Shown here: piece after piece, positions 4,821 to 49,114 of the stretch | How positions within the stretch are numbered: the first letter of the stretch is position 1 | Layout: every line of letters begins with the position of its first letter | Assembly: GCF_006912135.1 (NCBI RefSeq) | Contig: NZ_VIRS01000014.1 | Span: 62,001-126,000, forward strand | Length of the DNA stretch: 64,000 nt | Direction of reading: 5' to 3' | Source of the DNA: Cryptosporangium phraense | GTDB lineage: Bacteria > Actinomycetota > Actinomycetes > Mycobacteriales > Cryptosporangiaceae | Position numbers and translations under genes: made by a program | The notes under the pieces: model-generated | Told to the model about the DNA's origin: nothing | The model's database searches: none | Seen by the model: only the letters and a program-made list of their open reading frames with translations

Positions 4821-4839
4821 CCCCCCACTGGAGAACCCC

Positions 4840-5874: not shown

Positions 5875-5875
5875 C

Positions 5876-6673: not shown

Positions 6674-7419
6674 CCAGGGCGCTGCGATCGAGCGCCTACG
6701 GCGCCCTGGGAATGGTGGTGGTCCTCGCCGTCTGGCAGCTCCTGGCCACCACGGGGACGCTCGGTGGCGCGCTCACCGCCCCGACGGTGGTGGCGCGGGT
6801 GTTCGGGGACGCCGAGGAGCGGTCGACGCTGGCCCAGGCGGCGGTGGCGACGGGCGGCGAAGCGGTCGTCGGGTTCGGTTGGAGCCTGCTCACCGCGGTC
6901 GTGGTCGGGCTGCTCGTCACGCTGGTCCGGCCACTGCGCCGCGGAGTCGACCAGCTCGCGACGATCGAGAGCGCGATCCCGTTCCTCTCGCTCGCGCCGA
7001 TCATGCTGGCGCTCGTCTCCCGCGAGCACGTGCCGGCCGCGATGGCCGCCGCGACCGCGTTCTTTCCGCTCTACGTCGCGGTCACGGCCGGCCTGGACGC
7101 GGTGTCCAGGTCGGTCGCCGACCTGTGCACGGTGCTCGGGGCGTCCCGGATCGACACGCTGATCCGGGCCCGCATCCCGGCCGGTCTGCCGGTCATAGCG
7201 ACCGGTTTCAAGGTCGGCATGCCGCTGGCCATCGTCGGCGCGGTGATCGGCGAATGGTTCGGATCCAGCGACGGTGTCGGGCCGATCATGCTCGCCGCGA
7301 TGCGCGGCTACCAGATGCCCACGATGTGGGCGGCCGTGGTCGCCACGGTCCTCGTCGCGCTCGTCCTCTACGGCGTCTGCGCACTTCTCGAAGCACTCGT
7401 GACTCACCGATTCGGCTAA
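6670..7419 (+). CDS. ABC transporter permease, NitT/TauT type, second
   Basis: A 249-aa permease with six predicted helices and an EAA-like loop (TVLGASRIDTLIRARIPAG). The GTG start lies inside the ATPase stop. It is clearly different in sequence from the first permease at 3978-4820, so the importer probably uses a heterodimeric membrane core. Downstream, 9 bp separate it from the IPNS-like oxygenase gene, indicating that transport and catabolism are transcribed together. Confidence 0.92.
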   Translation: MTRALRSSAYGALGMVVVLAVWQLLATTGTLGGALTAPTVVARVFGDAEERSTLAQAAVATGGEAVVGFGWSLLTAVVVGLLVTLVRPLRRGVDQLATIESAIPFLSLAPIMLALVSREHVPAAMAAATAFFPLYVAVTAGLDAVSRSVADLCTVLGASRIDTLIRARIPAGLPVIATGFKVGMPLAIVGAVIGEWFGSSDGVGPIMLAAMRGYQMPTMWAAVVATVLVALVLYGVCALLEALVTHRFG

Positions 7420-7428
7420 GGGGTCCCC

Positions 7429-8436
7429 ATGGCCTTTCCTCCCGTCATCGATCTCACCAGCCCCGACGCCCCCGCCCTCATCGACGAAGCCTGCCGCAAC
7501 GTCGGCTTCTTCCAGGTCGTCGGGCACGGCATCCCGCAGTCGCTCATGGACTCGGTCTTCGACGTGGCCGACCGGTTCTTCGGCCAGGAACTACCGGCCA
7601 AGATGGCCTGGGCCTCCCCGTCGCCGGAGATCGAGCGCGGCTACTCGGCCAAGGGCACCGAAGGGCTGGCCTACAGCCTCGGGCTCGAGCAGCCGCCGGA
7701 CCTGTTCGAGGCGTTCACGATGGGCCGCGACCCGCTGCCCGACGACCCGGCCTACCACACGACCGAGCACACGCTGTTCGCCGAGAACATCTGGCCGGAC
7801 CAACCGGCTGACCTGCGTCCGACGTTGATCGAGTACTGGGACAATGCGGAGCGCGTCGTCCATCGGATCACGTCGCTGATGGCGGTCGCGCTCGGTCTGG
7901 ACAGCAACTACTTCGAGGCCTACACCGACAAGGCCGTCGAGGCCGTCCGGATCAACTACTTCGAGGGACGCCCGGGTGACACCGCGCTCCCGAACCAGAT
8001 GGGCATCGGCGCGCACACCGACTACGGGATCGTCACCGTGCTGCTCGCCGACCAGGAACCGGCGCTGCAGGTCTACACGAAGGACGAGGAGTGGGTCTAC
8101 GTCGCTCCCGTTCCCGGCGCACTGGTCGTGAACGTCGGCGACCTGATGGCGCGGTGGACCAACGACCGGTGGCGGTCGACCCTCCACCGGGTGATGCCGG
8201 TGCTCAGCGACGACAACTCCGTCCGCCGTCGCCGCTCGGTGCCGTTCTTCCACGAGGGCAACTTCGACGCGATCATCGAGTGCCTGCCCACGTGCACCGA
8301 CGCCGAGAACCCGCCGAAGTACGGGCCGATCAAGGGCGGCGACCACTTCTACGCCAAGACGATGTCCGGCCGGCTCCTGGAGGCGGCGGACGCCGAGTCG
8401 ACGCTCGGCGAGCGCGAGAAGGCGCTGAAGTCTTGA
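7429..8436 (+). CDS. Isopenicillin N synthase-like Fe(II)/2-oxoglutarate oxygenase
   Basis: A 335-aa non-heme iron oxygenase of the IPNS/2OG-Fe(II) family. The N-terminal DIOX_N part (residues 5-110) contains GFFQVVGHG. The iron triad is His196 and Asp198 (GAHTDYG) with His253 (TLHRV); the 2-oxoglutarate/substrate RxS motif is Arg268-Ser270, followed by PFFHEGNFD. All key residues are present. The family hydroxylates, desaturates or demethylates diverse small molecules. A role in antibiotic synthesis is unlikely here because no peptide synthetase is present; the setting among catabolic oxygenases suggests a degradative hydroxylation. The next gene starts within its stop. Confidence 0.93.
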   Translation: MAFPPVIDLTSPDAPALIDEACRNVGFFQVVGHGIPQSLMDSVFDVADRFFGQELPAKMAWASPSPEIERGYSAKGTEGLAYSLGLEQPPDLFEAFTMGRDPLPDDPAYHTTEHTLFAENIWPDQPADLRPTLIEYWDNAERVVHRITSLMAVALGLDSNYFEAYTDKAVEAVRINYFEGRPGDTALPNQMGIGAHTDYGIVTVLLADQEPALQVYTKDEEWVYVAPVPGALVVNVGDLMARWTNDRWRSTLHRVMPVLSDDNSVRRRRSVPFFHEGNFDAIIECLPTCTDAENPPKYGPIKGGDHFYAKTMSGRLLEAADAESTLGEREKALKS

Positions 8437-9614
8437 CGTCCGACGTCTCGGCGCTGGTCGAGCAGGTCGCCCGGTCCGCGGGCGACCTGCCGTCGGCGAT
8501 CTCGCTCCCGCCGCGCTCCTACACCTCGCCGGAGTTCTACGAGTTCGAGCGGGATGCGGTCTTCGGCGACAGCTGGCTGTACCTCTGTCACGTCTCCGAG
8601 GTCGCGAGCCCCGGGGACGTGCTGCCGATCACGGTCGCGGGCGAGCCGCTCGTCGTCACTCGGGACCAGAGCGGTGAGATCCACGTGCTGTCGTCGCTCT
8701 GCCGGCACCGGTCGTACCCGGTGATCGCCGAGCCGGCGAACACCCGCTCGCTGCGCTGCCCGTACCACTACTGGAGCTACGGCCTCGACGGTCGCCTGCA
8801 GAACGCGCCGTCGATGGATCCGGCCCATCGGCTGGCCGACCTGAAGGCGACGTACTGCCTGCCGTCGTTCCCGGTCGAGATCTGGCAGGGCTTCGTCTTC
8901 ACGCACCTCGGCGACGACCCGGAGCCGCTCTGGCCGACGCTGGAGCGGCTGGCGCCCGAGTTCGCCGCGCACCGGACGTCGGAGATGGTCGTGGGCGGCG
9001 GGCTGGTGCTGAAGGACCAGCCCTGGAACTGGAAGAACATGATGGAGAACGCCCTGGAGGCGTACCACACCAGCTTCATCCACCGCGGCTACCACGAGAA
9101 CGCCCCGGCGCGGCTGGTCGAGTTCCTCGACTTCGACCCGGACACCGAGAACGGCATCATGCGCTACGCGCCGTTCCTGCAGGAGGACGGCGGATTCCTC
9201 CAGGAGGACGGCAAGGCCGCGTTCCCGGTCATCGACGGTCTGACGAAGGAGCAGCGCAGCCGTGTCGTCTACGCGGCGGTGCCGCCGACGATGTTCGTCT
9301 CGATGAAGCCCGACTCGATGATGGTCTTCCGCATCACGCCGGACGCTCACGACCGCCTGACGCACTCGGTGACCTGGCTGTTCCCACCCGCGACGGTGCA
9401 GATGCCGGAGTTCGACGAGCTGATGGCCAAGCTGCGCGGGTTCTTCGACGTCATCAACGGCCAGGACGCGGAGGCCAACGCGAACATGTTCGCCGGGTTG
9501 AGCGCCCGCAACGCGGCCCGCGGTCCGTTCTCGCCCCAGGAGGCAACGTTGCCGCAGCTCAACGGCTGGCTGCTGCGCCGGTACCGGGCCGCCCTGCGCA
9601 AGGCCGACCGATGA
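8433..9614 (+). CDS. Rieske non-heme iron oxygenase, alpha subunit (second paralogue)
   Basis: A 393-aa paralogue of the protein at 2803-3981, starting with a TTG that overlaps the previous stop (TTGA). The Rieske ligands are Cys90, His92, Cys109 and His112. The catalytic iron site MENALEAYHTSFIH gives His212 and His217 with Glu209 as the inter-centre residue. A short repeated segment occurs near residue 250, where FLQEDGGFLQEDG may be a small internal duplication. The two paralogues are alike over their whole length yet differ enough to imply different substrates or successive steps. No reductase or ferredoxin gene is seen in the cluster. Confidence 0.92.
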   Translation: MTSDVSALVEQVARSAGDLPSAISLPPRSYTSPEFYEFERDAVFGDSWLYLCHVSEVASPGDVLPITVAGEPLVVTRDQSGEIHVLSSLCRHRSYPVIAEPANTRSLRCPYHYWSYGLDGRLQNAPSMDPAHRLADLKATYCLPSFPVEIWQGFVFTHLGDDPEPLWPTLERLAPEFAAHRTSEMVVGGGLVLKDQPWNWKNMMENALEAYHTSFIHRGYHENAPARLVEFLDFDPDTENGIMRYAPFLQEDGGFLQEDGKAAFPVIDGLTKEQRSRVVYAAVPPTMFVSMKPDSMMVFRITPDAHDRLTHSVTWLFPPATVQMPEFDELMAKLRGFFDVINGQDAEANANMFAGLSARNAARGPFSPQEATLPQLNGWLLRRYRAALRKADR

Positions 9615-10558
9615 CCGGGTTCGGGCCACGCCGGCTGGCCCACGTCAACCTGTTCGTCAGTGACCTGGAGCGGTCGACGGCGTTCTACACCGAGGTCTGC
9701 GGGCTGGACGTCGTGTTCGAGGAGCCGGGGATCTCGGCGGTGTTCCTCTCCAACGGCACCAGCCATCACGACCTGGCGTTGATGGAGGTCACGCCGGGGG
9801 AGCGGGTCGGCCGGGACGGGCACGTCCAGGTCTCCCGGGGCCGCGGCCGCCGGGCCGGGCTCAACCACCTCGGCTGGGAGATGGCCTCCGAGGCGGCGCT
9901 GGTCGAGGCCATCCACGACGTCCGCGGTCAGGGCGTGAAGCTGCACCGGACCGTCGACCACCAGATCTCGCGCAGCGCGTACGTGTTCGACCCGGACGAG
10001 GTCTACCTGGAGTTCTACTGCGACGCCGCCGAGGACTGGCGGGTCACGTACGCGAACAACACCGGTCAGCTGATCACCGGTTCCTGGGATCCGGACGCGG
10101 CCCCGGCCGACGCGTCGGCGCGCTACGCCGAGTCCCCGACGATCACCGTGGTCGAGGACGCCGCACTACGGCCGGTGCGCACGGCTCGGGCCAGCCTGAT
10201 CGTGTCCGACCTGGACGCGGCGGTGGCGTTCTACACCGGCGTGGGCGGGTTGTCGGTGCTCCGGCGGGGCGAGGCCGGGGCGGTGCTGGGCGGCTCGCTC
10301 GGACTACCGGACCTGACGCTGCTGGTCGGGACGAACCCGGGCCTCGACCATTTCGGCCTCGAGCTGCGGGACGCCGTCGAGCTGGCCGAGGGACTGGCCC
10401 GGGTTCGGGCGGCCGGTGTGCCGGTACTGCACGAGGAGTCGTCGCCGTACAAGCAGAGCCTGGTCCTCGTCGATCCGGACGGCATTCGGGTCGAGTTCCT
10501 GGTTCCCGGCGAAGGGGCGCTCGTGACACCGGGGCCGGAAAGTCCTTTCGCGATCTGA
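9611..10558 (+). CDS. Two-domain VOC (extradiol-type) dioxygenase-like protein
   Basis: A 315-aa protein made of two vicinal-oxygen-chelate domains. The N-terminal domain holds a full metal triad: His11 (AHVNLF), His86 (LNHLGW) and Glu134 (YLEFY). The C-terminal domain keeps the second His (DHFGLE) and the Glu (VEFL) but has Arg where the first His should be. In classical catechol 2,3-dioxygenases the iron sits in the C-terminal domain, so the arrangement here is reversed. It is the last gene of the operon, coupled to the second Rieske gene (ATGA). Ring cleavage of a dihydroxylated intermediate is the likely role; a lyase or glyoxalase role is possible. Confidence 0.88.
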   Translation: MTGFGPRRLAHVNLFVSDLERSTAFYTEVCGLDVVFEEPGISAVFLSNGTSHHDLALMEVTPGERVGRDGHVQVSRGRGRRAGLNHLGWEMASEAALVEAIHDVRGQGVKLHRTVDHQISRSAYVFDPDEVYLEFYCDAAEDWRVTYANNTGQLITGSWDPDAAPADASARYAESPTITVVEDAALRPVRTARASLIVSDLDAAVAFYTGVGGLSVLRRGEAGAVLGGSLGLPDLTLLVGTNPGLDHFGLELRDAVELAEGLARVRAAGVPVLHEESSPYKQSLVLVDPDGIRVEFLVPGEGALVTPGPESPFAI

Positions 10559-10578
10559 GGCTCGACCGGCAGAAGAAG

Positions 10579-10592
10579 CCGCCGTCCGGCGG
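10579..10592. terminator. Short hairpin between convergent genes
   Basis: CCGCC-GTCC-GGCGG forms a 5-bp stem with a tetraloop in the 38-bp gap between the VOC gene and the convergent hydrolase gene. There is no T-run, so this is a weak candidate for a bidirectional terminator. Confidence 0.3.
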
Positions 10593-10596
10593 GACG

Positions 10597-11451
10597 TCAG
10601 ATCCGTTTCTCCTGGAGAAAGGCCCGGACCAGCGCGTTGAACGTCGCCGGGTCCTCGAACTGCGGCCAGTGGCCGACGCCCGCCATCGGCGCGAAGCGCG
10701 CGCCCGGGATCCAGCCCGCCAGCTCCTGGCCGACGCTCTGCGGGCCGGTCGCGTCCCGATCGCCCCAGACGACGAGCGTGGGCGCGGTGATCTGCGCCCA
10801 GTCGACCGGGGAGAGCAGGTTCCGGGCCCGGACTTCGGGGTCTTGCAGGCACAACACCCTCTCCATGGCCTCGGAAGCCCCGGGGCGCCGGTAGATGGCC
10901 AGCCGGGCGCCGACCAGGTCCGCGGTCACGGTTGCCGGGTCGGCCATCAGCCAGGCCAGTCGTTCCCGGACGCTCTTCTCGGTCGGGGCCTCGGTCGCCG
11001 CGGCCGACAACGTCCGGATGGCGTTCATGACGGTGGGATCGGCGCGCACCCCGCCGGGAGCGACCAGGACGAGGCGACGGAGCCCGGAGGGGAACCGGCG
11101 CGCGAAGGCCGCGCCGACCCAGCCGCCGAGGGAGAGCCCGACAAGGTCGGGTGCCTCCAGGCCGAGGTGGTCGAGCAGCACCGACAGGTGCCGGACGTAG
11201 CCCTCGACCTCGTACGAACGGCCGGCCGGAGCGCTCGACCAGCCGTGGCCGGGAAAGTCGTAGGCGAACACGCGGTGGTCGACGGCGAGCGCGTCGATCG
11301 TGTGGGTCCAGGCCTCGAGGTGGCCCCCGACGCCGTGCAGGAGGACGACCGGGGGAGCGGCCGGTGGACCGGCCTCGACGAGCCGGGTACGGACGCCGTC
11401 GACGTACACCCGGCGGGGGCTGAGGGCCTGCTCTTTTGGCACCCAAATCAT
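10597..11451 (-). CDS. Alpha/beta hydrolase, meta-cleavage-product hydrolase-like
   Basis: A 284-aa alpha/beta-fold hydrolase with the oxyanion-side motif LLHGVGG, nucleophile elbow GLSLGG (Ser107), acid Asp233 (WGDRD) and His261 (GVGHWPQFE). This layout is that of C-C bond hydrolases acting on ring-fission products as well as haloperoxidase-like esterases. It converges on the VOC dioxygenase and diverges from a small VOC gene. The ATG lies within an AT-rich block (11445-11470) without a Shine-Dalgarno sequence, much like the first gene of the operon. Co-regulation with the operon and action after ring cleavage are inferred. Confidence 0.9.
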   Translation of the reverse strand: MIWVPKEQALSPRRVYVDGVRTRLVEAGPPAAPPVVLLHGVGGHLEAWTHTIDALAVDHRVFAYDFPGHGWSSAPAGRSYEVEGYVRHLSVLLDHLGLEAPDLVGLSLGGWVGAAFARRFPSGLRRLVLVAPGGVRADPTVMNAIRTLSAAATEAPTEKSVRERLAWLMADPATVTADLVGARLAIYRRPGASEAMERVLCLQDPEVRARNLLSPVDWAQITAPTLVVWGDRDATGPQSVGQELAGWIPGARFAPMAGVGHWPQFEDPATFNALVRAFLQEKRI

Positions 11452-11470
11452 ATAACATATAGGTTGTTAC
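11445..11470. promoter_or_regulatory. AT-rich divergent promoter/operator region
   Basis: This 26-bp AT-rich block covers the start codon of the minus-strand hydrolase and lies just upstream of the plus-strand VOC gene. On the minus strand it reads as a direct repeat TATATG-T-TATATG ending at the ATG. It shares the half-site TCATAT with the palindrome at 607-616. It is likely to hold promoter and operator elements for the divergent pair. Confidence 0.45.
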
Positions 11471-11491
11471 CTGCGGGTTAATGGAGCTGCT

Positions 11492-11941
11492 GTGCTGGAT
11501 GTGCAAGCCGTCGACCACGTGGCGGTCACCGTTCCCGACCTCGACGACGCGGTCTCCCTGCTCACCGACGTGTTCGGGGCGCGCGAGCTGTACCGCCGTG
11601 TGTACGCTCCGCGCGGCGACGAGATGGTGACGCAGTTCAACGCGCACGCCGAGGCCCGGTACCGGCTGGCGAAGCTGCGGCTGGGCGGCACCGACGTCGA
11701 GGTGTTCGAGTACACCGCTCCCGACCAGCGGGTCGAGCATCCACGCAACGCCGACGTCGGCGGTGGGCACCTCGGGCTGCGGGTGCCCGACATCGACGCG
11801 GCGGTGGCGGCTCTGGCCGACGAGCCGCGCATCCGGGTGCTCGGCGAGATCCAGCGGATCGAGCCGCCGCACCCGCTGGCCGGCCGGCGTTGGATCTACC
11901 TGCTCACGAGTTGGGGTCTGCAGCTGGAGCTGGTGTCCTGA
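11492..11941 (+). CDS. Small VOC protein, methylmalonyl-CoA epimerase/glyoxalase-like
   Basis: A 149-aa single-chain VOC protein with two beta-alpha-beta-beta-beta repeats. Metal ligands visible are His9 (VDHVAV), the central acidic residues of VEVFEY, His93 (GGHLGL) and a Glu in the C-terminal LELVS. This pattern matches methylmalonyl-CoA epimerase and lactoylglutathione-lyase relatives. The GTG start has GGAG five bases upstream. It is divergent from the hydrolase gene and could belong to the same regulon. A catabolic epimerase or isomerase role is plausible but unproven. Confidence 0.85.
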   Translation: MLDVQAVDHVAVTVPDLDDAVSLLTDVFGARELYRRVYAPRGDEMVTQFNAHAEARYRLAKLRLGGTDVEVFEYTAPDQRVEHPRNADVGGGHLGLRVPDIDAAVAALADEPRIRVLGEIQRIEPPHPLAGRRWIYLLTSWGLQLELVS

Positions 11942-11986
11942 GCCTGCGTCAGCGCTCTCTCAGGAACGTCAACCTAGGGTGATCCT

Positions 11987-14797
11987 GTGACAGGGATGCC
12001 CGGACCGGCGCGCACGGGTTGGCGCGCAGTGGTCACCGTCAGGCGAGTTCTCACCACGGTGGCCGTGATCGTCGCGGTCGCCGCGCTGATCGTCTGGATC
12101 CGCTGGCCCGACGGGGAGTCGGTCCGGACGACGTCCGCGATGGTCACCGTGCAGTCGGGGCCGGGCCGGAACCAGCCGATCGCGCTGGACACCTCGGTCT
12201 TCGTCCCGTCGAGCGCCTCGGCCGACCATCCGGTGCCCGCCGTCCTGCTCGCCCACGGGTTCGGCGGCAGTAAAGACAGCGTCGCCGCGCAGGCCCGCAA
12301 GCTGGCCGGTCAGGGCTACGTCGTGCTGACCTGGAGCGCGCGCGGGTTCGGCCGCTCGGGCGGCACGATCTCCCTCGACGACCCGGACTACGAGGTGAAC
12401 GACGCCCGCGCGCTGATCGACCGCCTGGCCGACCGGGACGACGTCGAGCAGGACGGTTCCGGTGACCCGCGGGTGGCCGTGGTCGGCGGCTCGTACGGCG
12501 GGGCGCTGAGCCTGCTGCTGGCCGGCTACGACCAGCGGGTCGACGCGATCGTCCCGCAGATCACCTGGAACGACCTGCCCAACGCGTTCTTCCCCGAGTC
12601 CACCGGGGCCGGGCCGGCCGACGGCGTGTTCAAGCGCTCCTGGGCCGGCCTGTTCTTCGGCAGCGCGGGGGCCGGTGGCGGGAACCCCAGCGACCTGGCC
12701 GCGCTGCTGGGCGCGCGCTCGGACTCGAACGGCGAGATCGACCCGGCCAGCATCGACCCGGCCAAGGCCGAGGAACTCGTGCAGTGCGGCCGGTTCTCGC
12801 CCGACCTCTGCCGTCTGTACCTGCAGGCCGCGACCACCGGGCGGGCCACGCCGGAGATCATCCGGCGGCTCGACCGGGCCAGCCCGGCCGGCATCTTGAA
12901 CCGCATCAAGGCGCCGACGCTGCTGATCCAGGGCCAGGCCGACACGCTGTTCCCGCTCTCCGAGGCCGACGCCAACGCCCGCGGGATCGCCGCGACCGGC
13001 ACGCCGGTGAAGGTCGCCTGGTACGCGGGCGGCCACGATTCCAGCCCGTCGACCCGGGAGTCCGACCGCATCGACGCGCTGACGCTCGACTGGCTTCACC
13101 ACTACCTGCGCGGCGGCGGTCCGAAACCGAACACCGACTTCAGCTACACGACGGCCGGCGCGATCAGCGTCCGGGACACCCGGCCGACCACCCGGATCTA
13201 CACGCTCAACGGTTATCCGCCGCAGGGTGACGGTTATCGGGTCCGGCTCTACGGCCCCAGCCCGCAGCCGATCGCGAACCCGCCGGCCGGCACCCCGGCC
13301 GCGCTCTCGTCTTTGCCCGGCACCGGCGCGCTGACCAGCCGGTTGTCCAGTGCCGGCATCGACGTCCCGGGGCAGTTCGCGAACTACACCGGGGTCGAGC
13401 TGTCCCGCTCGATCGACGTCGCCGGGGCGCCGACCGTGCAGATCCAGGCCGCGTCGCCGACCGGTGAGGCCGTGTTGTTCGTCAAGCTCTACGACGTCGA
13501 TGCGGACGGCCGGGCCACGCTGCCCGGCGGGGCGGTCGCGCCGGTGCGGCTGACCGGCCTGCCCCGGTCCGCCGACCAGCTCGGGAGCCGGTTGCCGGTG
13601 ACCGTGACGCTGCCGACGCTCGGCCACCGCTTCGAGTCCGGGCACAGCGTCCGCCTGGTGATCAGTACCAGTGACCAGGCCTACGCCGGGCCGGTGACGC
13701 CGGCCGTCTACCAGGTGGCCGTGGCCGCGAACAGCCTGCACCTGCCCGAGGTGACCCCGGTGCCGGTGGCGGACGCCACCGGTACCTGGCTGTGGGTGCT
13801 GGCCGGCCTGCTGCTGCTCGTGGTCCTCGGAGTGACCTCGGCCGTGCTGATCGTCCGCGCGCGCCGGCGGACCTCCGCCGTCGACCCCGCGACCGCGGAG
13901 GTCCCGCTGACCGTCCGCGGGCTCCGCAAGGCCTACGGCGACGGGTACCTGGCCGTGCGCGACCTGTCGTTCACCGTCGAGCCGGGGCAGGTCGTCGGGC
14001 TGCTCGGGCCGAACGGCGCGGGCAAGACGACCGCGCTGCGGATGTTGCTCGGGCTGATCCGGCCGAGCGGCGGCGAGATCCTGGTGTTCGGGCACCGGAT
14101 CGGGCCCGGCGCGCCGGTGCTGTCGCGGATCGGCGCGTTCGTCGAGGGGCCCGGCTTCCTGCCGCACCTCTCCGGGCTGGAGAACCTGCGCCGGTACTGG
14201 CAGGCGACCGGGCGTCCGGCCGAGTCGGCCCGGCTGGACGAGGCGCTGGAGATCGCCGGGCTCGGCGCCGCCGTCGAACGCAAGGTGAAGACGTACAGCC
14301 AGGGCATGCGTCAGCGGCTGGCGATCGCGCAGGCGATGCTCGGCCTGCCCGACCTGCTGGTACTCGACGAACCGACGAACGGACTCGACCCGCCGCAGAT
14401 CGCCGAGATGCGCGAGGTGCTCTCCCGGTACGCGACCGACGGCCGCGCGGTGCTGGTCTCCTCGCACCTGCTGGCCGAGGTGGAGCAGGTCTGCACGCAC
14501 GTCGTCGTGGTCAGCAAGGGCACCGGCGTTGCCGCCGGTCCGGTCGCCGAGATCGTCGGCGAGGGCCGGTCGGTCCTGGTCGGGGTCAGGTCCGGCGATG
14601 AGGAAGTTGCACTCACGGCGCTGCGGGCGATGCCGGGCGTCTCGGTGGCCCAGCCGAACGGGCACGGGCTCGTCGTCGAGCTGGCCGGGGCGGAGCGGGG
14701 AGACGTCGTGCGGGAGCTGGTCGGAGCCGGGGTCGGAGTGGAGCGGCTGGTCGCGCGCCGCCGTCTGGAAGACGTCTTCTTGGAGCTGGTGAAATGA
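11987..14797 (+). CDS. Fusion of membrane-anchored S15-like hydrolase and ABC ATPase
   Basis: A 936-aa fusion protein. Residues 17-40 form a membrane anchor. Residues about 50-590 are an X-Pro dipeptidyl-peptidase/CocE-like alpha/beta hydrolase with nucleophile GGSYGG (Ser169), a GQADTLFPL acid segment and GGHDSS histidine, then a jelly-roll-like C-terminal part. A second membrane helix (about 600-625) leads to an ABC ATPase with Walker A GPNGAGKTT (674-682), the degenerate signature YSQGMRQR and LLVLDEPTNGLDP. By topology the hydrolase should be outside the membrane and the ATPase inside. The next gene, overlapping by ATGA, encodes the permease. It may couple export with extracellular processing of a peptide or ester. 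Confidence 0.88.
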   Translation: MTGMPGPARTGWRAVVTVRRVLTTVAVIVAVAALIVWIRWPDGESVRTTSAMVTVQSGPGRNQPIALDTSVFVPSSASADHPVPAVLLAHGFGGSKDSVAAQARKLAGQGYVVLTWSARGFGRSGGTISLDDPDYEVNDARALIDRLADRDDVEQDGSGDPRVAVVGGSYGGALSLLLAGYDQRVDAIVPQITWNDLPNAFFPESTGAGPADGVFKRSWAGLFFGSAGAGGGNPSDLAALLGARSDSNGEIDPASIDPAKAEELVQCGRFSPDLCRLYLQAATTGRATPEIIRRLDRASPAGILNRIKAPTLLIQGQADTLFPLSEADANARGIAATGTPVKVAWYAGGHDSSPSTRESDRIDALTLDWLHHYLRGGGPKPNTDFSYTTAGAISVRDTRPTTRIYTLNGYPPQGDGYRVRLYGPSPQPIANPPAGTPAALSSLPGTGALTSRLSSAGIDVPGQFANYTGVELSRSIDVAGAPTVQIQAASPTGEAVLFVKLYDVDADGRATLPGGAVAPVRLTGLPRSADQLGSRLPVTVTLPTLGHRFESGHSVRLVISTSDQAYAGPVTPAVYQVAVAANSLHLPEVTPVPVADATGTWLWVLAGLLLLVVLGVTSAVLIVRARRRTSAVDPATAEVPLTVRGLRKAYGDGYLAVRDLSFTVEPGQVVGLLGPNGAGKTTALRMLLGLIRPSGGEILVFGHRIGPGAPVLSRIGAFVEGPGFLPHLSGLENLRRYWQATGRPAESARLDEALEIAGLGAAVERKVKTYSQGMRQRLAIAQAMLGLPDLLVLDEPTNGLDPPQIAEMREVLSRYATDGRAVLVSSHLLAEVEQVCTHVVVVSKGTGVAAGPVAEIVGEGRSVLVGVRSGDEEVALTALRAMPGVSVAQPNGHGLVVELAGAERGDVVRELVGAGVGVERLVARRRLEDVFLELVK

Positions 14798-40137: not shown

Positions 40138-40974
40138 CTAGACAGAAGCAAGCCTCGGAATGGTGACACGTGGCACGAGCCCGGCTTCGGCGGCCCGCCC
40201 CAGAAGCGCGTCGACCGCCGCGTAACCGTCGTCGCCCAGGTCCCGGGTGAACTCGTTCACGTACAGCCCGATGTGCTGGTCGACGACGTCGTCCTCCATC
40301 TCCTGGGCGTGCGCGAGGACGTACTCCCGGCTGAGCGACGGATCGGCCCAGGCGGCCTCGACCGACGCGCGGACGAGCCGGGCGGCCTCGGCCGGGGTGA
40401 TGCCCACCCGGGACGCCAGGTCTTTACGGGCCAGGATCGCGCCGAGCGGGATCGGCAGGCCGGTCGTCGACTCCCACCAGTCGCCGAGGTCCTTCGCCGA
40501 GTGCAGGCCGTAGCGCTGGTAGGTGAACCGGGCCTCGTGGATCACCAGGCCGGCGTCGATCTCGCCGGCCGCGACCGCGGGCATGATCTCGTGGAACGGC
40601 CGGACGACGACCTCGGCCGGCGGCTCGTCGGCCGACCAGAGCCGGAACAGCAGGTAGGCGGTGGTGCGGTCGCCCGGGACGGCCACGACCTTGCCGGCCA
40701 CCGAGTCCGAACCCCGGGTGAGCACCAGCGGCCCGCACCCGCGGCCCAGCGCGCCACCGCAGGGCAGCAGCGTGTACTGGTCGAGCAGCCAGGGCAGCGC
40801 TGCGTACGACACCTTCACCAGGTCGTACTCACCGCGTTCGGCCGCGCCGTTGGTGACGTCGACGTCGGCGAAGTCCACCTCCACCGGCGGGGTGCCGGGG
40901 ATCCGGCCGTGCACCATCGCGTCGAAGACGAACGTGTCGTTCGGGCAGGGGGAGAACGCCATCCGCATCGTCAC
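40138..40974 (-). CDS. mqnD: 1,4-dihydroxy-6-naphthoate synthase
   Basis: A 278-aa enzyme of the futalosine route to menaquinone, converting cyclic dehypoxanthine futalosine to 1,4-dihydroxy-6-naphthoate. The hallmark SPCPNDTF (residues 8-15) and the catalytic His146 in GLVIHEARF are present in a periplasmic-binding-protein-like fold. Its start overlaps the mqnB stop (ATGA). MqnA and MqnC are not in the window. The organism therefore makes menaquinone without the o-succinylbenzoate route, at least in part. Confidence 0.96.
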   Translation of the reverse strand: MTMRMAFSPCPNDTFVFDAMVHGRIPGTPPVEVDFADVDVTNGAAERGEYDLVKVSYAALPWLLDQYTLLPCGGALGRGCGPLVLTRGSDSVAGKVVAVPGDRTTAYLLFRLWSADEPPAEVVVRPFHEIMPAVAAGEIDAGLVIHEARFTYQRYGLHSAKDLGDWWESTTGLPIPLGAILARKDLASRVGITPAEAARLVRASVEAAWADPSLSREYVLAHAQEMEDDVVDQHIGLYVNEFTRDLGDDGYAAVDALLGRAAEAGLVPRVTIPRLASV

Positions 40975-41582
40975 GAGTCAACCGTAGCTCTCACCAGAGC
41001 GGCCACCGCGGTGCGCAGCGACTCGAACGCCAGCGGGATGTTCCAGGCGCTGCGGTCGCGGCGTCCGACCAGGTTGCTGATCGCCCGGAGCTCGGCCCAG
41101 GGCACCCCGGCGGCCTGGGCCGCCCAGGCGACCCCGTAGCCCTCCATGGCCTCGGCCACCGCGGACGGGTGCACCGACGCCAGCTCGGCGCCCCGGCGGT
41201 CGGTGCCGGTCATCGTCGAGAGCGTCAGGATCTCGCCGGTCAGCACCGGCAGGTCGAGCGCGTCGGTGACCCAGCGCCCGCCCGGCGAGGCCAGCACGTC
41301 ACCGCCGGCCAGGCCCAGCCCGGCCAGGTCGAGGAAACCCTCGTCGGTGTCGGCGCCCAGGTCGGCCCAGCGGACGGTGTCGGCGACGACGATCGAGCCG
41401 ATCGGCGCGCGTCCGGCGAAGCCGCCGGCCAGCCCGGTGGAGAGCACCAGGTCGTACGTCCCGGAGCCCAGCGCCATCGCGGTGCTCACCGCGGCCGCGA
41501 CCGGCCCCACCCCGCCCACCAGCCCGTCGACGCCGAGGGCGTCCAGTTCGGCCTGGACGGCGGTCACCACCAGCAGGTTCAT
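40971..41582 (-). CDS. mqnB: Futalosine hydrolase
   Basis: A 203-aa nucleoside-phosphorylase-fold enzyme releasing hypoxanthine from futalosine. Visible are the N-terminal LLVVTAVQAELDAL, STGLAGGF, and the substrate-binding EAMEGYGVAWAA followed by ISNLVGRRDR. It is somewhat shorter than MTA/SAH nucleosidase relatives and matches MqnB. Coupling to both neighbours (ATGA overlaps with DUF2771 upstream and mqnD downstream) supports the assignment. Confidence 0.93.
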   Translation of the reverse strand: MNLLVVTAVQAELDALGVDGLVGGVGPVAAAVSTAMALGSGTYDLVLSTGLAGGFAGRAPIGSIVVADTVRWADLGADTDEGFLDLAGLGLAGGDVLASPGGRWVTDALDLPVLTGEILTLSTMTGTDRRGAELASVHPSAVAEAMEGYGVAWAAQAAGVPWAELRAISNLVGRRDRSAWNIPLAFESLRTAVAALVRATVDS

Positions 41583-43541: not shown

Positions 43542-44444
43542 ATGAATACTGTGACGACCCGCACGGTGAACCGTCCCGCGGCAGCTGAGTCGACCGAGGA
43601 CGGTGTGGTGACCGGGAACCCAGAGGCCGCTGACACCCCACGTGCGCGGCGGACGCCCCGCGCCATCAAGCTCGACACGGTCTGCGCGCAGGCCACCGAC
43701 CTGGCCCGCGAAGCCGCCGTAGAGGTCGGCGGCGACATGGTCGGCGACCCGGTCGCGGTCAGCGCCGACGGCGAGCGGCTGGTGACCCACCGGTTCGCCG
43801 CGCTCCAGCCCGGCTACGCGGGCTGGTACTGGTCGGTCACCGTGACCCGGGTCCCGCGCTCGAAGCACGTCACGGTCAGCGAGGTCGCGCTGCTGCCGGG
43901 CTCCGACGCGCTGCTGGCGCCCGAGTGGGTGCCGTGGAGCGAGCGGCTGCGCCCCGGCGACCTCGGCGTCGGCGATCTGCTGCCGACCGCGCCCGACGAC
44001 GACCGGCTGGTGCCCGGGTACGTGCTCTCCGACGACCCCGAGGTCGCCGAGGTCGAGTACGAGATCGGGTTCGGGCGACCGCGGGTGATGAGCCGGCTGG
44101 GCCGGGAGGAGACCGCCGACCGCTGGTACACCGGCACCTCCGGCCCGGAGAGCGAGCTGGCCAAGGCCGCGCCGGCCCGGTGCGGCAGCTGCGGCTTCTA
44201 CCTGCAGCTGGCCGGTTCGCTCGGCGGGCTGTTCGGGGCCTGCGGCAACCTGTTCGCGCCCGACGACGGCCGGGTCGTCTCGGCCGACCACGGCTGTGGG
44301 GCGCACTCCGAGGCGCTGGTCGAGCCGGCGCCGCCGGTGCCGCCCGCGCCGATGGCGCTCGACGACGACCTCGAGGTCATCCGCACCGCGCACACGCCCG
44401 GCTCGGTGGAAGACACCGACGGCGAGCCTCTCGGCCACGGCTGA
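43542..44444 (+). CDS. DUF3027 zinc-binding protein
   Basis: A 300-aa protein of the actinobacterial DUF3027 family. After a variable basic N-terminus, the core (about residues 45-180) has GWYWSVTVTRVPRSKHVTV. The C-terminal part carries RCGSCGFYLQL, FGACGNLFAPDDGR and DHGCGAHSE, giving four cysteines and a histidine that likely bind zinc. The function is unknown. Its TGA overlaps the ATG of the GHKL ATPase gene by one base, and the two are followed by a third coupled gene, so they form one operon. Confidence 0.9.
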   Translation: MNTVTTRTVNRPAAAESTEDGVVTGNPEAADTPRARRTPRAIKLDTVCAQATDLAREAAVEVGGDMVGDPVAVSADGERLVTHRFAALQPGYAGWYWSVTVTRVPRSKHVTVSEVALLPGSDALLAPEWVPWSERLRPGDLGVGDLLPTAPDDDRLVPGYVLSDDPEVAEVEYEIGFGRPRVMSRLGREETADRWYTGTSGPESELAKAAPARCGSCGFYLQLAGSLGGLFGACGNLFAPDDGRVVSADHGCGAHSEALVEPAPPVPPAPMALDDDLEVIRTAHTPGSVEDTDGEPLGHG

Positions 44445-47350
44445 TGGATTCCTTCGGGACGGCGGAACGGCGGGCCGCCGTTCTCGCCTCCTGGGCCGGT
44501 GTCGCGACCCGGTTCCGGGAGGACGCCAACGCGGAGGAGGAGCTCGTCCGCGGTGGCCTCGGCGGTTATGCCGACCGTCTGGTGGTGGAGCTCGCCCAGA
44601 ACGCGTCCGATGCGGCCGCGCGCGCCGGCGTCCCCGGTTCGCTGCGTTTCTCGTACGTCGACGGCGTCCTGTCGGTCGCCAACACCGGTTCGCCGTTGGA
44701 CGCGGCCGGAGTGGACGGCCTCACCTCGCTGCGTGCGTCAGCCAAGACCGACGTCAGGGAGCCCGGCACCGTTGGTCGCTTCGGCGTCGGGTTCGCGGCC
44801 GTGCTCGCGGTCAGCGACGCCCCCGAAGTGCGATCCAGCGCCGGTGGGGTGCGGTTCTCGGCCGAGCAGACCCGGGCCGAGGTATCGGCGCTCGGCGGCG
44901 CACCGGCCGCCGAGCTCGCCCGGCGGGGCGGGGCGGTGCCGGTCCTGCGGCTGGCCTGGCCGGCCGACGAGCCGCCGACGGCCGGCTACGACACCGAGGT
45001 ACGGCTGCCGGTGCGGCCGGACGCGATCGAGCGGGTGCGGGCCATGCTCGCCGACGTCGAGCCGACGCTGCTGTTCGCGTTCCCCGGGCTGACCCGGCTC
45101 GAGATCGCCGTCGACGGCGCCGAGCGGGTCATCGAGCGGGCCGGGTCGGTCGGCAACACGGTGTCGCTGGCCTCGAACGGCGAGGTGACCACGTGGCTCG
45201 TGTCGTCCGACCAGGGCGACGTGCCGCCGGAGCTGCTGGCCGAGCGTCCGCTGGAGGAGCGGGCGGCCCTGGCCCGGTATTCGACGCTGGCCGCGATTCC
45301 GCTGGGTCGCCGTCTCAGCGGCGACACGGTTCTGCACGCTCCGTCGCCGACCGACGAGCCGCTCTCGCTGCCGATCCACCTGGCCGCGACGTTCCCGCTG
45401 GAGGTCTCGCGCCGCCGGGTGGCCCCGGGCGCGCTCACCGACTGGCTCGCCGCCCGGGCCGCCGACACGGTGGTCGCGCTGATCACGGCCGCGCCGCCGG
45501 CCGTCGAGACGCTCGCGCTGGTGCCCCGGCCGGGCCTGGGCCGGGCTCCGCTCGACGCGGCGATCTGCTCGCTGGTGCTGGCCGGTCTCCGCGAAGCGGA
45601 GTTCCTGCCGCTGGAGCCGGTCCCCGACGCGGTTCTGCCGTGGTCGGACGACGAGGTCGCGTTACTTGCCTCCGGCCTCGGCGACGCCTTCGGCCTCACC
45701 CCGCCCGCGGAGCCCGACCCGCTCTCGTCGACCGCCGACTCGGCCGCGCCGACCGCCGACTCGGCCGCCGTGTGGGATCGGGTGGCGCCGACGCGGGCGG
45801 TCACGGTCACCTCCGAGCTCGCGGCCACCGCCGACCTCCTCGCCGGCGCGCTGGCCGGGGTCGTCCCCGGGTTGCTGCCCGCCGACTGGTCCAGCCGCGC
45901 GGCCGCGCCGGCGCTGGACGCGCTCGGCGTCCGGCGGCTGACGGTCGCCGACGTAGTCGAGGCCGTGGCCGGCCTCGATCGGCCGGCCCCCTGGTGGGGC
46001 GACCTCTACCACGCCCTCGAACCCGCGAGCGCCGACCTGGACGCGCTCGCCGCGCTCCCGGTCCCGCTCACCGACGGACGCACGGTCACCGGCGTGCGGG
46101 GCGCGCTGCTCCCCGGACCGGACCTGGCCGCGATCGCCCCCGACACGCTCGCCCCGCTCGGCCTCCGGGTCGTCCACCCCGACGCGGTCGGCAGCGACCT
46201 GCTGACCCGCCTCGGCGCCCGCCCGGCCACCGTCGGCACGATCCTGGCCGACGAACGCGTCCGGGCCGCCGTCGCCGACTCTCTCGACGCCGACGAGCCC
46301 GAACCGCTGGCCGAAGCGATCCTCGCGCTCGTCGCCGCGGCCGGTATCCGCCCGGGCGACGAGCCCTGGCTGGCCGAGCTCGCGCTCCCGGCCGACGACG
46401 ACTGGTACCCGGCCGGCGAACTGGTCGTACCCGGCTCGCCGCTGACCAGGGTCTTCGCCGGCATGGGCACCGACGACGCCCCGTTCGGCGTCGTCGACGA
46501 GGACTTCGCCAACGACGTGCTGGCCGCCCACGGTCCCGACGTGCTGGCCGCGGTCGGCTGCCTGACCACGTTCACCGTCCTCGACGCCGACGACATCGAC
46601 GTCGTCGACCTGGCCGACCTCGGCGCGGACGACGCGGACCTGGACCTCGACGGCCTGGAGGAGTGGGCCGACGCGGTGATCGAGGCGATCGACCCGACCG
46701 GAACCGTCGGCGCGCCGCCCGGCACCCGGATCGAGAGCTTCCGCGCGATCCGCGACCTCGACCTGGTCGACGAAGACCAGTGGCCGGTCGCCCTGCAGCT
46801 GCTGGCCGAGGGCCCGCCCCGCGAGGTTCTGAACGCGACCGCCTACGCGCTGACGCCGGACGGCCGCCGGATCGAGGTCCCGGCCTACACCCGCTGGTGG
46901 CTGGCCCGGGAGCCGATCCTGGACGGCCGCGCGCCCGGCGAACTCCGCACCGGCGACGCGTTCGACCTCGACGGCCTGTACGACGTGGCACCGGACGACG
47001 TCGATCAGGCCCTGCTGCCGCTGCTGGGCTGCCGCACCGGCCTGCTCGACGCGATCGCCGCCGACCCGAACGACCTGCTGCGCCGCCTGGCCGACGCCGA
47101 CCGCACCGCGGTGCCGCAGATCGTTCCGCTGGTCTACGCCCGGATCGCCGAGGCGCTGGCGGGCGCCCGGGTGGAGGCCCCGGCCCACGTCCGGGTCGCC
47201 CCCGACGCCGTCGCCGACACCGACCAGGTCGCGATCCTCGACCAGCCCTGGCGCCTGGACGCGCTCGACGGCCGGGTGCCGATCCTCGGCGGCGACGACC
47301 CGGTCTCGGTGGCCGAGCTGCTCGACGTTCCGCTGGTGTCTGAGTTGTGA
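44444..47350 (+). CDS. Sacsin-like GHKL ATPase protein
   Basis: A 968-aa protein with an N-terminal HSP90-like ATPase domain of the sacsin N-terminal type. The N-box VVELAQNASDAA has Glu49 and Asn53; the second box is ANTGSPLD, with Ala where DxG usually has Asp; the G-box is GRFGVGFAAV (111-120). A second, acidic, Leu/Ala-rich part (about residues 250-968) has no recognised domain. Such proteins resemble molecular chaperones or AAA-like regulators of DNA/RNA processes. Coupling to DUF3027 upstream and a propeller protein downstream (GTGA) suggests a complex. Confidence 0.85.
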   Translation: MDSFGTAERRAAVLASWAGVATRFREDANAEEELVRGGLGGYADRLVVELAQNASDAAARAGVPGSLRFSYVDGVLSVANTGSPLDAAGVDGLTSLRASAKTDVREPGTVGRFGVGFAAVLAVSDAPEVRSSAGGVRFSAEQTRAEVSALGGAPAAELARRGGAVPVLRLAWPADEPPTAGYDTEVRLPVRPDAIERVRAMLADVEPTLLFAFPGLTRLEIAVDGAERVIERAGSVGNTVSLASNGEVTTWLVSSDQGDVPPELLAERPLEERAALARYSTLAAIPLGRRLSGDTVLHAPSPTDEPLSLPIHLAATFPLEVSRRRVAPGALTDWLAARAADTVVALITAAPPAVETLALVPRPGLGRAPLDAAICSLVLAGLREAEFLPLEPVPDAVLPWSDDEVALLASGLGDAFGLTPPAEPDPLSSTADSAAPTADSAAVWDRVAPTRAVTVTSELAATADLLAGALAGVVPGLLPADWSSRAAAPALDALGVRRLTVADVVEAVAGLDRPAPWWGDLYHALEPASADLDALAALPVPLTDGRTVTGVRGALLPGPDLAAIAPDTLAPLGLRVVHPDAVGSDLLTRLGARPATVGTILADERVRAAVADSLDADEPEPLAEAILALVAAAGIRPGDEPWLAELALPADDDWYPAGELVVPGSPLTRVFAGMGTDDAPFGVVDEDFANDVLAAHGPDVLAAVGCLTTFTVLDADDIDVVDLADLGADDADLDLDGLEEWADAVIEAIDPTGTVGAPPGTRIESFRAIRDLDLVDEDQWPVALQLLAEGPPREVLNATAYALTPDGRRIEVPAYTRWWLAREPILDGRAPGELRTGDAFDLDGLYDVAPDDVDQALLPLLGCRTGLLDAIAADPNDLLRRLADADRTAVPQIVPLVYARIAEALAGARVEAPAHVRVAPDAVADTDQVAILDQPWRLDALDGRVPILGGDDPVSVAELLDVPLVSEL

Positions 47351-48666
47351 AGTTCTTACGCGGACTGGTCACTCTCGCGATCACGATCTGCGTGGCCCTG
47401 CTGCTGGTGGCGATCGCCGGCTACGGCAGCAGCAAGTCGGTGGCCGAGAAGGAGCGAACCGCCCCGGCGAAGGTGTTCCAGCCGTTCGGCTGGCAGCAGA
47501 CCGTCGAGAAGTCGCCCCCGGGGCCGGCCACGGTGCTGGTCAGCGGCGACGGCTGGGGCATGCGCGGGGTCACGTACCGGGGCAAGGTCGCGGTGGTCGG
47601 CGGCACCTACCGCACCCAGCGCTACCGGACCGACGTCGAGGCCGGGGAGGACGTCCTGCTCTCGCCGGACGGGACGACGATCGCCGACGGGATCCCCCGG
47701 CCGGTCCCGACGGCGTCGGGCAGCCCGGCCGCGACGACGACCGGCAGCCGCGACCCGGCGATCTGGTTCACCGACCTGGAGTCGGGCCGGACGAGAAGGA
47801 TGACCGTGCCGGCCACCGGCACCGCGCGGCCGGTCGCGTTCTCGCCGGACGGCCGGAAGATCCTGGTCCAGGTCGCGTCCCCGCCCGAACACGGGCCCTG
47901 GCCCGGCGGCGAACTCGACCTGATGGACCTCGCGACCGGCGAGGTGAGCCGGCTGGCGAACCTGGGCACCGCGCCGGTCCACCGCGCTCAGCTGGCCGCG
48001 TTCTCGCCGACCGGACGCGAGGTCGCGGTCCAGATCGGCGACGCGATCTCGGTCGTCGACGTGAAGTCCCGGGCCGCCCGCCCGCTCGCCCGGCTCGGTC
48101 CCGACCGCCGAATCGCCGGGATCGGCGCCTGGAGCGGGGACGGCACCCGGATCGCGGTGCTCACGATGTCCGGCTGCAGCAAGCGCTGCGACGCCGACGA
48201 CCTGGACGACCGGACCTGGCAGATCGACGAGATCGACGCCACCACCGGGGCCCCGCGGACCGGCTCGTTCGACCGGCTGACCGGCTCGACGATCCGGGTG
48301 CTCGGCCAGACCGACACCGGCGAGCTGGCCGTCGTCCGCTACCACGCGTCGAACGACGTCAGCATCGACGGCCTGGGCGAGCTGACCGTCGACGGCGACC
48401 CGGCCGAGGAGACGGACTACGGCGCGGTCGACGACGCCGACCTGCTCGGCCTGACGCCGTCGGGCCGGCGGCGGACGCTGGTGTCGCTGCCCCCGGGCTC
48501 GCGCCACGTCGACGTCGCCGGGCAGCTGGTCGTCGAGGACCGGATGGGCGGCGACTCGTCCCGGCCGATGCCGTGGCCGGCCCCGTTCTGGGTCGACCTC
48601 GCGCTGATCGCCGTGCTGCTGCTGGTGATCTGGGGCGCTTATCGCCTCCGCCGGGCGACCCGCTAA
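47347..48666 (+). CDS. Membrane-anchored beta-propeller (TolB/WD40-like) protein
   Basis: A 439-aa protein with an N-terminal helix (residues 5-25), a large extracytoplasmic domain and a C-terminal helix (about 410-430) followed by RRATR. The middle has repeated strand motifs such as LLSPDGTTIADG, VAFSPDGRKILVQ, AAFSPTGREVAVQ and GAWSGDGTRIAVL, characteristic of TolB-type propeller blades. The GTG start overlaps the ATPase stop. It probably senses or binds something outside the membrane for the upstream ATPase. The stop overlaps the next convergent gene by 4 bp. Confidence 0.82.
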   Translation: MKFLRGLVTLAITICVALLLVAIAGYGSSKSVAEKERTAPAKVFQPFGWQQTVEKSPPGPATVLVSGDGWGMRGVTYRGKVAVVGGTYRTQRYRTDVEAGEDVLLSPDGTTIADGIPRPVPTASGSPAATTTGSRDPAIWFTDLESGRTRRMTVPATGTARPVAFSPDGRKILVQVASPPEHGPWPGGELDLMDLATGEVSRLANLGTAPVHRAQLAAFSPTGREVAVQIGDAISVVDVKSRAARPLARLGPDRRIAGIGAWSGDGTRIAVLTMSGCSKRCDADDLDDRTWQIDEIDATTGAPRTGSFDRLTGSTIRVLGQTDTGELAVVRYHASNDVSIDGLGELTVDGDPAEETDYGAVDDADLLGLTPSGRRRTLVSLPPGSRHVDVAGQLVVEDRMGGDSSRPMPWPAPFWVDLALIAVLLLVIWGAYRLRRATR

Positions 48667-48998
48667 GCCGACACCGAAGCGTCCTCGGCCTTGGCGTCCG
48701 CCAGTTCTTCGTGAATCAGGACGCGGACGTGCATGGTCGTGCGCTGCTGCAGCGCGGCCCGAAGGGCGCGGTGCAGCCCGTCTTCCAGGTACAGGGCGCC
48801 GTCGAACTCGACCACGTGCGGGAACAGGTCGCCGTAGAACGTCGAGTCCTCGGCCAGCAACCGGTCCAGGGCGAGCTCCCGCTTGGTCGTCACCAGCTGG
48901 TCGAGCCGGACCTGACGGGGCGGTATCCGAGCCCACTCGCGCAGCGACAGACCGTGGTCGGGGTACGGCTTCCCGTCCCGGACCGCCTTGAATATCAC
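48663..48998 (-). CDS. ParB/sulfiredoxin-fold-like small protein (111 aa)
   Basis: A 111-aa protein of an actinobacterial family whose members share KAVRDGKPYPDHGL, IPPRQVRLDQLVTTKREL, EDSTFYGDLFPHVV and LYLEDGLHRALRAAL. The DGLHRALRA element resembles the DGxHR core of ParB/Srx-like domains, though the rest is not ParB-like. Some relatives may be annotated as toxin-antitoxin proteins; I see no toxin beside it. GTG at 48998 is chosen because AAGGAGCGTAAGGA lies just upstream; an in-frame GTG at 49028 is the alternative. Confidence 0.7.
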   Translation of the reverse strand: MIFKAVRDGKPYPDHGLSLREWARIPPRQVRLDQLVTTKRELALDRLLAEDSTFYGDLFPHVVEFDGALYLEDGLHRALRAALQQRTTMHVRVLIHEELADAKAEDASVSA

Positions 48999-49114
48999 GG
49001 TCCTTACGCTCCTTTCGTCCCCAGCCACCGTCGGTTCAGCCTAGCGAGCGCCGCACGTCCCGGAGTGCCGACCAGGCGGGGGAGGCCTCCTCCGTCCGGT
49101 CATTTCTGCAATTC

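Follow-up and report, generated by a model that had tools for sequence, protein, structure and literature searches.

A DUF3027 gene and a sacsin-type GHKL ATPase gene form a conserved pair in actinomycetes

Examination of a 64,000-nucleotide stretch of the Cryptosporangium phraense genome (RefSeq assembly GCF_006912135.1, contig NZ_VIRS01000014.1, positions 62,001 to 126,000 of the forward strand; hereafter the window, in whose coordinates positions are given unless another locus is named) reveals a gene for a DUF3027 protein followed by one for a sacsin-type GHKL ATPase, and the recurrence of this arrangement in other genomes provides good support for a conserved two-gene unit. The DUF3027 gene (43542..44444; 300 residues) encodes the only match in the genome to PF11228, extending over positions 1-192 of the 193 in the profile (282.6 bits, cut-off 25; E 2.4e-84). 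The ATPase gene (44444..47350; 968 residues) encodes a match to the sacsin N-terminal ATP-binding-like family NF047352 (77.1 bits, cut-off 50), sacsin being a human ataxia protein. We propose, with middling confidence in the chain as a whole, that the ATPase acts as an ATP-driven clamp to remodel or regulate DUF3027.

The two genes overlap by a single base (TGATG, 44442-44446), and a third gene (47347..48666; 439 residues) overlaps the end of the ATPase gene by four (GTGA, 47347-47350). All three lie on the forward strand, as do their features given below, and the original prediction of three coupled genes, made from the sequence of this stretch, is thus correct for the window. When the window is compared with one congener, differences are in excess at the third codon position in all three frames (27, 19 and 82 at positions 1, 2 and 3 in DUF3027; 121, 83 and 321 in the ATPase; 111, 95 and 166 in the third gene), indicating that the frames behave as real genes, translated and under selection. 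Protein identity in the same comparison is 86% for DUF3027, 83% for the ATPase and 63% for the third protein.

Conservation of the gene pair

Conservation was assessed in a class sample of 296 genomes, a phylum sample of likewise 296 genomes, and 61 relatives searched genome-wide; distances within the pair were measured between matched stretches, and the sets of 83 genomes, 43 loci and 80 loci used below overlap in part. DUF3027 is matched in 292 of the 296 class genomes (three of the four without it are 75-82% complete) and in 26 genomes of the phylum sample, all 26 belonging to the window's class. The ATPase profile matches 151 of the class genomes, five of them weakly (E 4e-45 to 3e-4), and these five may hold a long relative. 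Given that DUF3027 is near-universal, its co-occurrence with the ATPase says little, and it is gene position that is informative. In 76 of the 83 ATPase-positive class genomes (of 151) that had both coordinates among the matches listed, the ATPase lies downstream of DUF3027 on the same strand at less than 2 kb, the gap between the matches being shorter than 500 bp in 64 of them and 500-2000 bp in 12. A same-strand DUF3027 gene likewise precedes the ATPase gene at 38 of 43 loci, and at 66 of 80 loci drawn from Streptomyces, Nonomuraea, Actinomadura, Nocardiopsis, Umezawaea, Actinocatenispora and others, four of these 66 with 2.4-6.6 kb between the two. This retained adjacency bears out the predicted coupling of the ATPase to DUF3027.

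Among individual loci, about 8.4 kb separates DUF3027 and the ATPase at one (L061 of genome G128, about 4218-12616), with order and strand unchanged, and about 4.8-4.9 kb at two Streptomyces loci (L190 and L229). In one class-sample genome rated 100% complete (G544) DUF3027 is unmatched and the ATPase is present only as a 504-residue piece (profile 451-948), as if the two were being lost together. No paper on the pair appeared among the matches listed in a search of the open-licence literature.

A sacsin-type ATP site in a predicted Hsp90-like fold

The family NF047352 is matched by all 25 proteins in a set of ATPase relatives (E <= 1e-3), and the Pfam SACS model (PF25794) by 22 of the 25 at E <= 0.01. 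The window's protein scores 21.2 bits against the PF25794 cut-off of 32.8, and is thus better viewed as kin of the sacsin domain than as a member of Pfam SACS. The Hsp90 family PF00183 is absent among its matches at E <= 1, and the host genome has two PF00183 matches elsewhere. Nor does the protein resemble a whole sacsin, as it has a single ATPase match in its 968 residues and no match to UbL, J or HEPN domains at E <= 1. It is the sole NF047352 match over the cut-off in its own genome, three others falling below. A profile of the ATPase searched against the PDB finds sacsin SR1 best (E 4.3e-4 to 1.3e-3 over 36-42 residues), followed by Hsp90 and HtpG; the single sequence gave no match there at E <= 1. 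A viral library gave matches to phage RIIA and to Hsp90-like proteins. SspH was considered as a possible identity and rejected, being a 142-residue protein (SCO1241 in S. coelicolor; PMC9137472).

A comparison of 117 sequences (the window, the 80-locus set and 36 other loci, among which species may overlap; the truncated or mis-started rows L067, L128, L130, L138, L148, L149 and L150 are excluded) showed that 14 of 18 ATP-site positions are invariant, the four that vary being Leu50 (115 of 117), Pro84 (110), Leu85 (112) and Thr184 (110). The N box (ELAQNASDAA, residues 49-58; 44588..44617) contains the invariant Glu49, Asn53, Asp56 and Ala57, and the sacsin-type G1 box (ANTGSPLD, residues 79-86; 44678..44701) the invariant Asn80 and Gly82. 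Equally invariant are Ser99 and Lys101 of a Ser-x-Lys lid, which is modelled at low confidence, together with Gly111, Gly114, Gly116 and Phe117 of the G2 box (44738..44794), and a pair of arginines, Arg323-Arg324 (45410-45415).

In the three ATPase domains of sacsin, Asp79 of Hsp90 is replaced by asparagine (Asn160, Asn1526 and Asn2592; PMC9880540, Table 1), Gly83 by Val, Gln or Pro, and Gly100 by Lys (section 6 of the same source). Here Asn80 occupies the place of Asp79, and a lysine stands for Gly100 as in sacsin, these single-residue equivalences being drawn from sequence and secondary structure; the Phe that sacsin has at the place of Met84 is not shared, Leu being present here. The arginine pair lies in the model between a strand (312-315) and a long helix (330-349), the same context as Arg474 of sacsin (PMC9880540), as judged by secondary structure and not by superposed coordinates. 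The asparagine, the Ser-x-Lys lid and the arginine loop of the sacsin type are all present. The original prediction had found the ANTGSPLD box and called it degenerate; the invariance of Asn80, together with sacsin's own asparagine at this place, argues that the box has not decayed. Judged by its conserved residues, the pocket is of the sacsin type and kept under strong selection.

The structural model of the ATPase averages 90.2 in predicted local distance difference test (pLDDT) score; its poorly modelled parts are the lid and a linker near residues 424-440. This predicted model assumes an Hsp90-like two-domain fold over residues 18-385, with Z scores of up to 15.8 and a root-mean-square deviation (rmsd) of about 4.5-6. 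The aligned chains include 7l7i_A (Hsp90; Z 15.8, 358 aligned residues, rmsd 6.4, residues 18-499), 8eob_B (Hsp90; Z 15.5, 295 aligned, rmsd 5.3, residues 18-385), 6xlf_B (Hsc82; Z 15.4, 266 aligned, rmsd 4.8), 3zkd_C (GyrB; Z 13.9, 271 aligned, rmsd 4.5) and 5v44_C (sacsin SR1; Z 13.8, 170 aligned, rmsd 3.1). These fold and profile matches, together with the NF047352 score, support the earlier identification of a 968-residue GHKL sacsin-like ATPase. Since two-domain Hsp90 chains align over residues 18-385, a middle (transducer) domain is predicted at about residues 205-385 (45056..45598), and a known domain can thus be discerned far beyond the first 270 residues. The earlier statement that the C-terminal 700 residues hold no known domain accordingly fails for about residues 205-385 and stands, by sequence, for the last ~520. 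This C-terminal alpha/beta region (residues about 440-968; 45761..47347) is mostly confident in the model. It has no Pfam or NCBIfam match over cut-off, and the whole-model fold search barely tests it; a profile of residues 455-968 found nothing significant in five long relatives of the ATPase described below (best E 0.015), and a profile self-comparison for internal repeats gave a best probability of 5.8%.

The DUF3027 protein

We know of no function for DUF3027, which is probably a soluble protein. The sole confident part of its model is an N-terminal domain of a helix and four strands (residues about 45-119; 43674..43898; blocks with pLDDT about 88-97). Further along, Cys214, Cys217, Cys234, Cys252 and His255 (44181..44306) form a putative zinc site, and zinc binding is plausible given that all five are invariant in 43 aligned rows. 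Residues about 45-120 have a weakly supported cystatin-like arrangement, the best match being to a designed protein (Z 8.2 over 75 residues, rmsd 2.9). With a Z score too weak for the purpose and no Foldseek match at E <= 1e-3, assignment to a fold was rejected; the DUF3027 profile found no PDB match at E <= 1. The Streptomyces coelicolor representative, SCO4330, is listed as an actinobacterial signature gene (PMC4255298). That of Mycobacterium tuberculosis is Rv0877, for which a frameshift in one BCG isolate (PMC7781554) suggests that DUF3027 can be lost there. A first reading of DUF3027 as Rv0883c was wrong, a paper under that name giving its orthologue, apparently a Cg0947-type protein, as DUF3071.

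A candidate ATP-driven clamp and its alternatives

In light of these observations, we propose that the ATPase works as a clamp on DUF3027. What the analysis shows is the gene pair, its order and conservation, the ATP-site residues and the predicted fold. By analogy with Hsp90 and sacsin, ATP would bind the N-terminal domain, with Glu49 as the base, Asn53 for Mg and Asn80 for adenine; the lid (Ser99-x-Lys101 and GRFGVGF) would then close, and the middle domain would dock so that Arg323 and Arg324 could reach the gamma-phosphate and assist hydrolysis. In a dimeric clamp this cycle could move the 520-residue C-terminal arms, which may hold DUF3027, or a complex containing it, and fold, load or release it. 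The role of DUF3027 as partner or client is suggested by gene position. The third gene would be a lineage-specific addition to the operon.

Several observations weigh against the clamp proposal. Five of the 83 genomes have the two genes on opposite strands; of the other two outside the 76, one has the pair 8.4 kb apart in unchanged order and one has the ATPase match on another contig. The five exceptional loci among the 43 comprise one locus that starts inside the ATPase gene and four of a family (f84), in whose genomes both genes are retained but lie on different contigs; the tree groups two of these genomes with Geodermatophilaceae. DUF3027 is not seen upstream in 14 of the 80 loci; nine of these are from Geodermatophilaceae, three lack a nearby DUF3027 over the 4-7 kb available upstream, and the other two start less than 300 bases from the ATPase. 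With DUF3027 matched in 292 and the ATPase in 151 of the 296 class genomes, roughly half of the sample has the former without the latter, so DUF3027 does not always need the ATPase. Pairwise distances over 39 loci correlate no better between the ATPase and DUF3027 (r 0.965) than between the ATPase and the divergent MFS gene upstream of DUF3027 (0.979; DUF3027 with MFS, 0.963), and hence give no signal of co-evolution beyond common descent. To these may be added the large rmsd of the ATPase fold alignments, the poor overall model of DUF3027 (pLDDT 63), and the fact that neither an experiment on the ATPase gene nor a mutant of it was found in the open-licence literature searched.

An unlikely reading, in our estimate, takes the pair for a regulatory unit and not a folding machine: DUF3027 would regulate development or secondary metabolism, and the ATPase, as an ATP-gated switch, would respond to a signal by setting DUF3027 activity. 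GHKL clamps can act as switches. Among S. coelicolor transposon mutants with decreased or abolished actinorhodin, more than five insertions fell in SCO4330 (PMC6585502). However, the pigment phenotype may be indirect, given that 71 genes have more than one such insertion and 263 have one (PMC6585502). Against a regulatory role are also the near-universality of DUF3027 in the class sample and the lack of a mutant of the ATPase gene in the literature searched.

It is less likely still that the genes have two unrelated functions and a common promoter, with their order kept by descent alone. The distance agreement, which does not exceed that of the MFS control, and the half of the class sample without the ATPase would be in keeping with this; however, the order holds across many genera, mostly with less than 500 bp between the matched stretches, and in one genome a separation of 8.4 kb left order and strand intact. 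The distance agreement and a clade arranged mostly by family (below) fit the vertical descent of a housekeeping locus.

Relationship to Tiamat and other long relatives

The ATPase might also be read as a Tiamat-like (TmtA) anti-phage protein whose place beside DUF3027 is a matter of chance. Eight PADLOC TmtA models match the ATPase within residues about 23-604 (best E 1.4e-35), and the best two of them match all 25 of its relatives; Tiamat is also reported to be over-represented in Actinobacteria and to be nearly always on the chromosome (PMC10482375). However, the matches span 65-542 of the 1302-1782 positions in these models, the best covering 30-328 of 1538 and the widest 22-563 of 1370, in a search to which the PADLOC cut-offs were not applied. 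In five long relatives (about 1570-1625 residues) the N-terminal domain is matched at E 7e-11 to 1e-36, and the middle domain less strongly, at E 4e-3 to 6e-9. Of three such long TmtA-like proteins scanned, two (about 1570-1600 residues; L082:471-5255 and L085:4297-9003, both on the reverse strand) join a sacsin-type ATPase front to a helicase end (Pfam ResIII/DEAD and Helicase_C) that is missing in the window ATPase, and the third has a sub-threshold NOV_C match. A first assignment of these ends as nucleases, taken from PADLOC names, was wrong, as Pfam gives helicase domains in two of the three.

In a quick, midpoint-rooted tree, where two of the long relatives sit on very long branches, the ATPases linked to DUF3027 fall into a single clade separate from the long forms (99% by the Shimodaira-Hasegawa-like approximate likelihood-ratio test (SH-aLRT), branch 1.13). 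Inside this clade taxa mostly group by family, with the Thermomonosporaceae not forming one clade and a Glycomyces-labelled row placed with Nocardiopsis. The separate clade, and a gene order and descent in step with neighbouring genes that are unlike those of a mobile defence gene, make the anti-phage reading improbable. Speculatively, some chromosomal 'Tiamat' calls could be this ATPase. Together these observations raise the tentative idea that the actinomycete ATPase might be a housekeeping, effector-free cousin of Tiamat, a dedicated sacsin-type clamp for DUF3027 and the source of some of those calls.

The third gene and the flanking genes

Hydropathy peaks at both ends of the third protein, near residues 1-32 and 411-435, predict two membrane segments; the protein also has propeller-like repeats. 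PD40 scores in the four orthologues of the genus are 25.9, 21.0, 19.5 and, in the window, 18.7 bits, two of the four being over the Pfam cut-off of 20.9, and DPPIV_N is over its cut-off in one of them. With TolB (TIGR02800) the protein scores 17 bits against a cut-off of 343.15. The original prediction of a bitopic TolB-like propeller is thus retained in part: there are two membrane segments and not one, the TolB score is far under the cut-off, and the propeller is suggested by weak PD40 matches.

In the genome-wide search the third protein is matched in five of the 61 relatives, namely the four genomes of the genus and one of a sister genus (E 3.8e-6, on another contig). The class sample yields four matches in 296 genomes, that of the window and three weak ones (E about 1.4e-6 to 2.5e-4) covering part of the protein at 29-33% identity, on contigs other than that of the ATPase match. 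A profile of the four orthologues recovers, over the loci searched, a sole further copy, in the sister genus (E 4.5e-8), the next match being at E 0.34. No third gene shared with other loci was seen, DUF2530 occurring in three of the eight downstream neighbours scanned. Outside the genus, therefore, two of the three genes are found conserved, against the predicted three-gene operon, which was staked on co-conservation of all three across actinobacteria. The third gene looks like a lineage-specific passenger, or local tuning, of the two-gene unit.

That the three proteins form an ATP-driven machine reaching across the membrane, as originally predicted, is highly improbable: the GTG start overlapping the ATPase stop in all four genomes of the genus suggests co-translation there, but elsewhere the third protein has only weak partial matches, and the gene after the ATPase is mostly on the other strand (55 of the 78 loci with a call in the 80-locus set, by our own crude gene caller, which mis-set the start of the window ATPase).

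The sister-genus relative (L091:1087-2349, forward strand; genome G299, contig C105) is a 420-residue protein in which inspection by eye suggests hydrophobic stretches near both ends. The 185-residue frame directly before it looks like a small sigma factor, and a sigma-linked membrane protein of this sort may be the ancestor of the third protein of the genus.

Downstream of the third gene lies a short convergent gene (48663-49028, reverse strand) that overlaps it by four bases and matches PF23719, the 'VapB-like antitoxin' family (166 bits). On the other side, beyond the MFS gene and a DUF2771-like gene, are two genes (40138-41582, reverse strand) matching PF02621 (menaquinone biosynthesis) and PF01048 (nucleoside phosphorylase family), taken as mqnD- and mqnB-like, which have the same placement in many Streptomyces loci and in Actinocatenispora. 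DNA repeats at the locus comprise low-identity matches only.

Implications and comparison with known systems

If the clamp proposal is true, the ATPase would be a small sacsin-type machine standing on its own, with DUF3027 as its one encoded partner. A dedicated neighbouring ATPase would offer a handle on DUF3027, a listed actinobacterial signature protein. The abstract of PMC9880540 calls it unclear and debatable whether, and in what way, the Hsp90-like domains of sacsin bind ATP and hydrolyse it; a one-module relative of 968 residues with a likely single partner, in genetically tractable hosts, would make that question testable. The relationship to TmtA would also warn against phage-defence labels given from an N-terminal match alone.

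The sacsin ATPase module (SR1/HSP-NRD with HSP-MRD; SIRPT) shares with the window ATPase the asparagine at Hsp90 Asp79, the Ser-x-Lys lid, the GxxGxGF motif and the arginine loop before a long helix (PMC9880540, PMC3629688). In contrast to the single module of the window protein, the 4579 residues of sacsin contain three modules as well as UbL, J and HEPN domains, and in the analyses run its repeats did not match the C-terminal 520 residues of the ATPase. Hsp90/HtpG, GyrB and Topo VI-B have the same arrangement of ATPase and middle domains (Z about 13-16 over about 250-360 residues), whereas the window ATPase lacks a PF00183 match and has Asn for the Asp79 of Hsp90. TmtA, with the ATP domain of sacsin the nearest curated relative of the window ATPase, resembles it in the N-terminal and middle domains but is represented by much longer models, and the window ATPase differs from it in a locus kept in order and, as it appears, vertically inherited; the helicase end of two of the three long TmtA-like relatives is without counterpart in the window protein. 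The third protein shares weak PD40 repeats with TolB and other PD40 propeller proteins, and differs from TolB in its low score and its two predicted membrane segments. Finally, the DUF3027 of the window corresponds to SCO4330 and Rv0877 through a near full-length profile match, whereas the neighbouring ATPase is missing in about half of the class sample.

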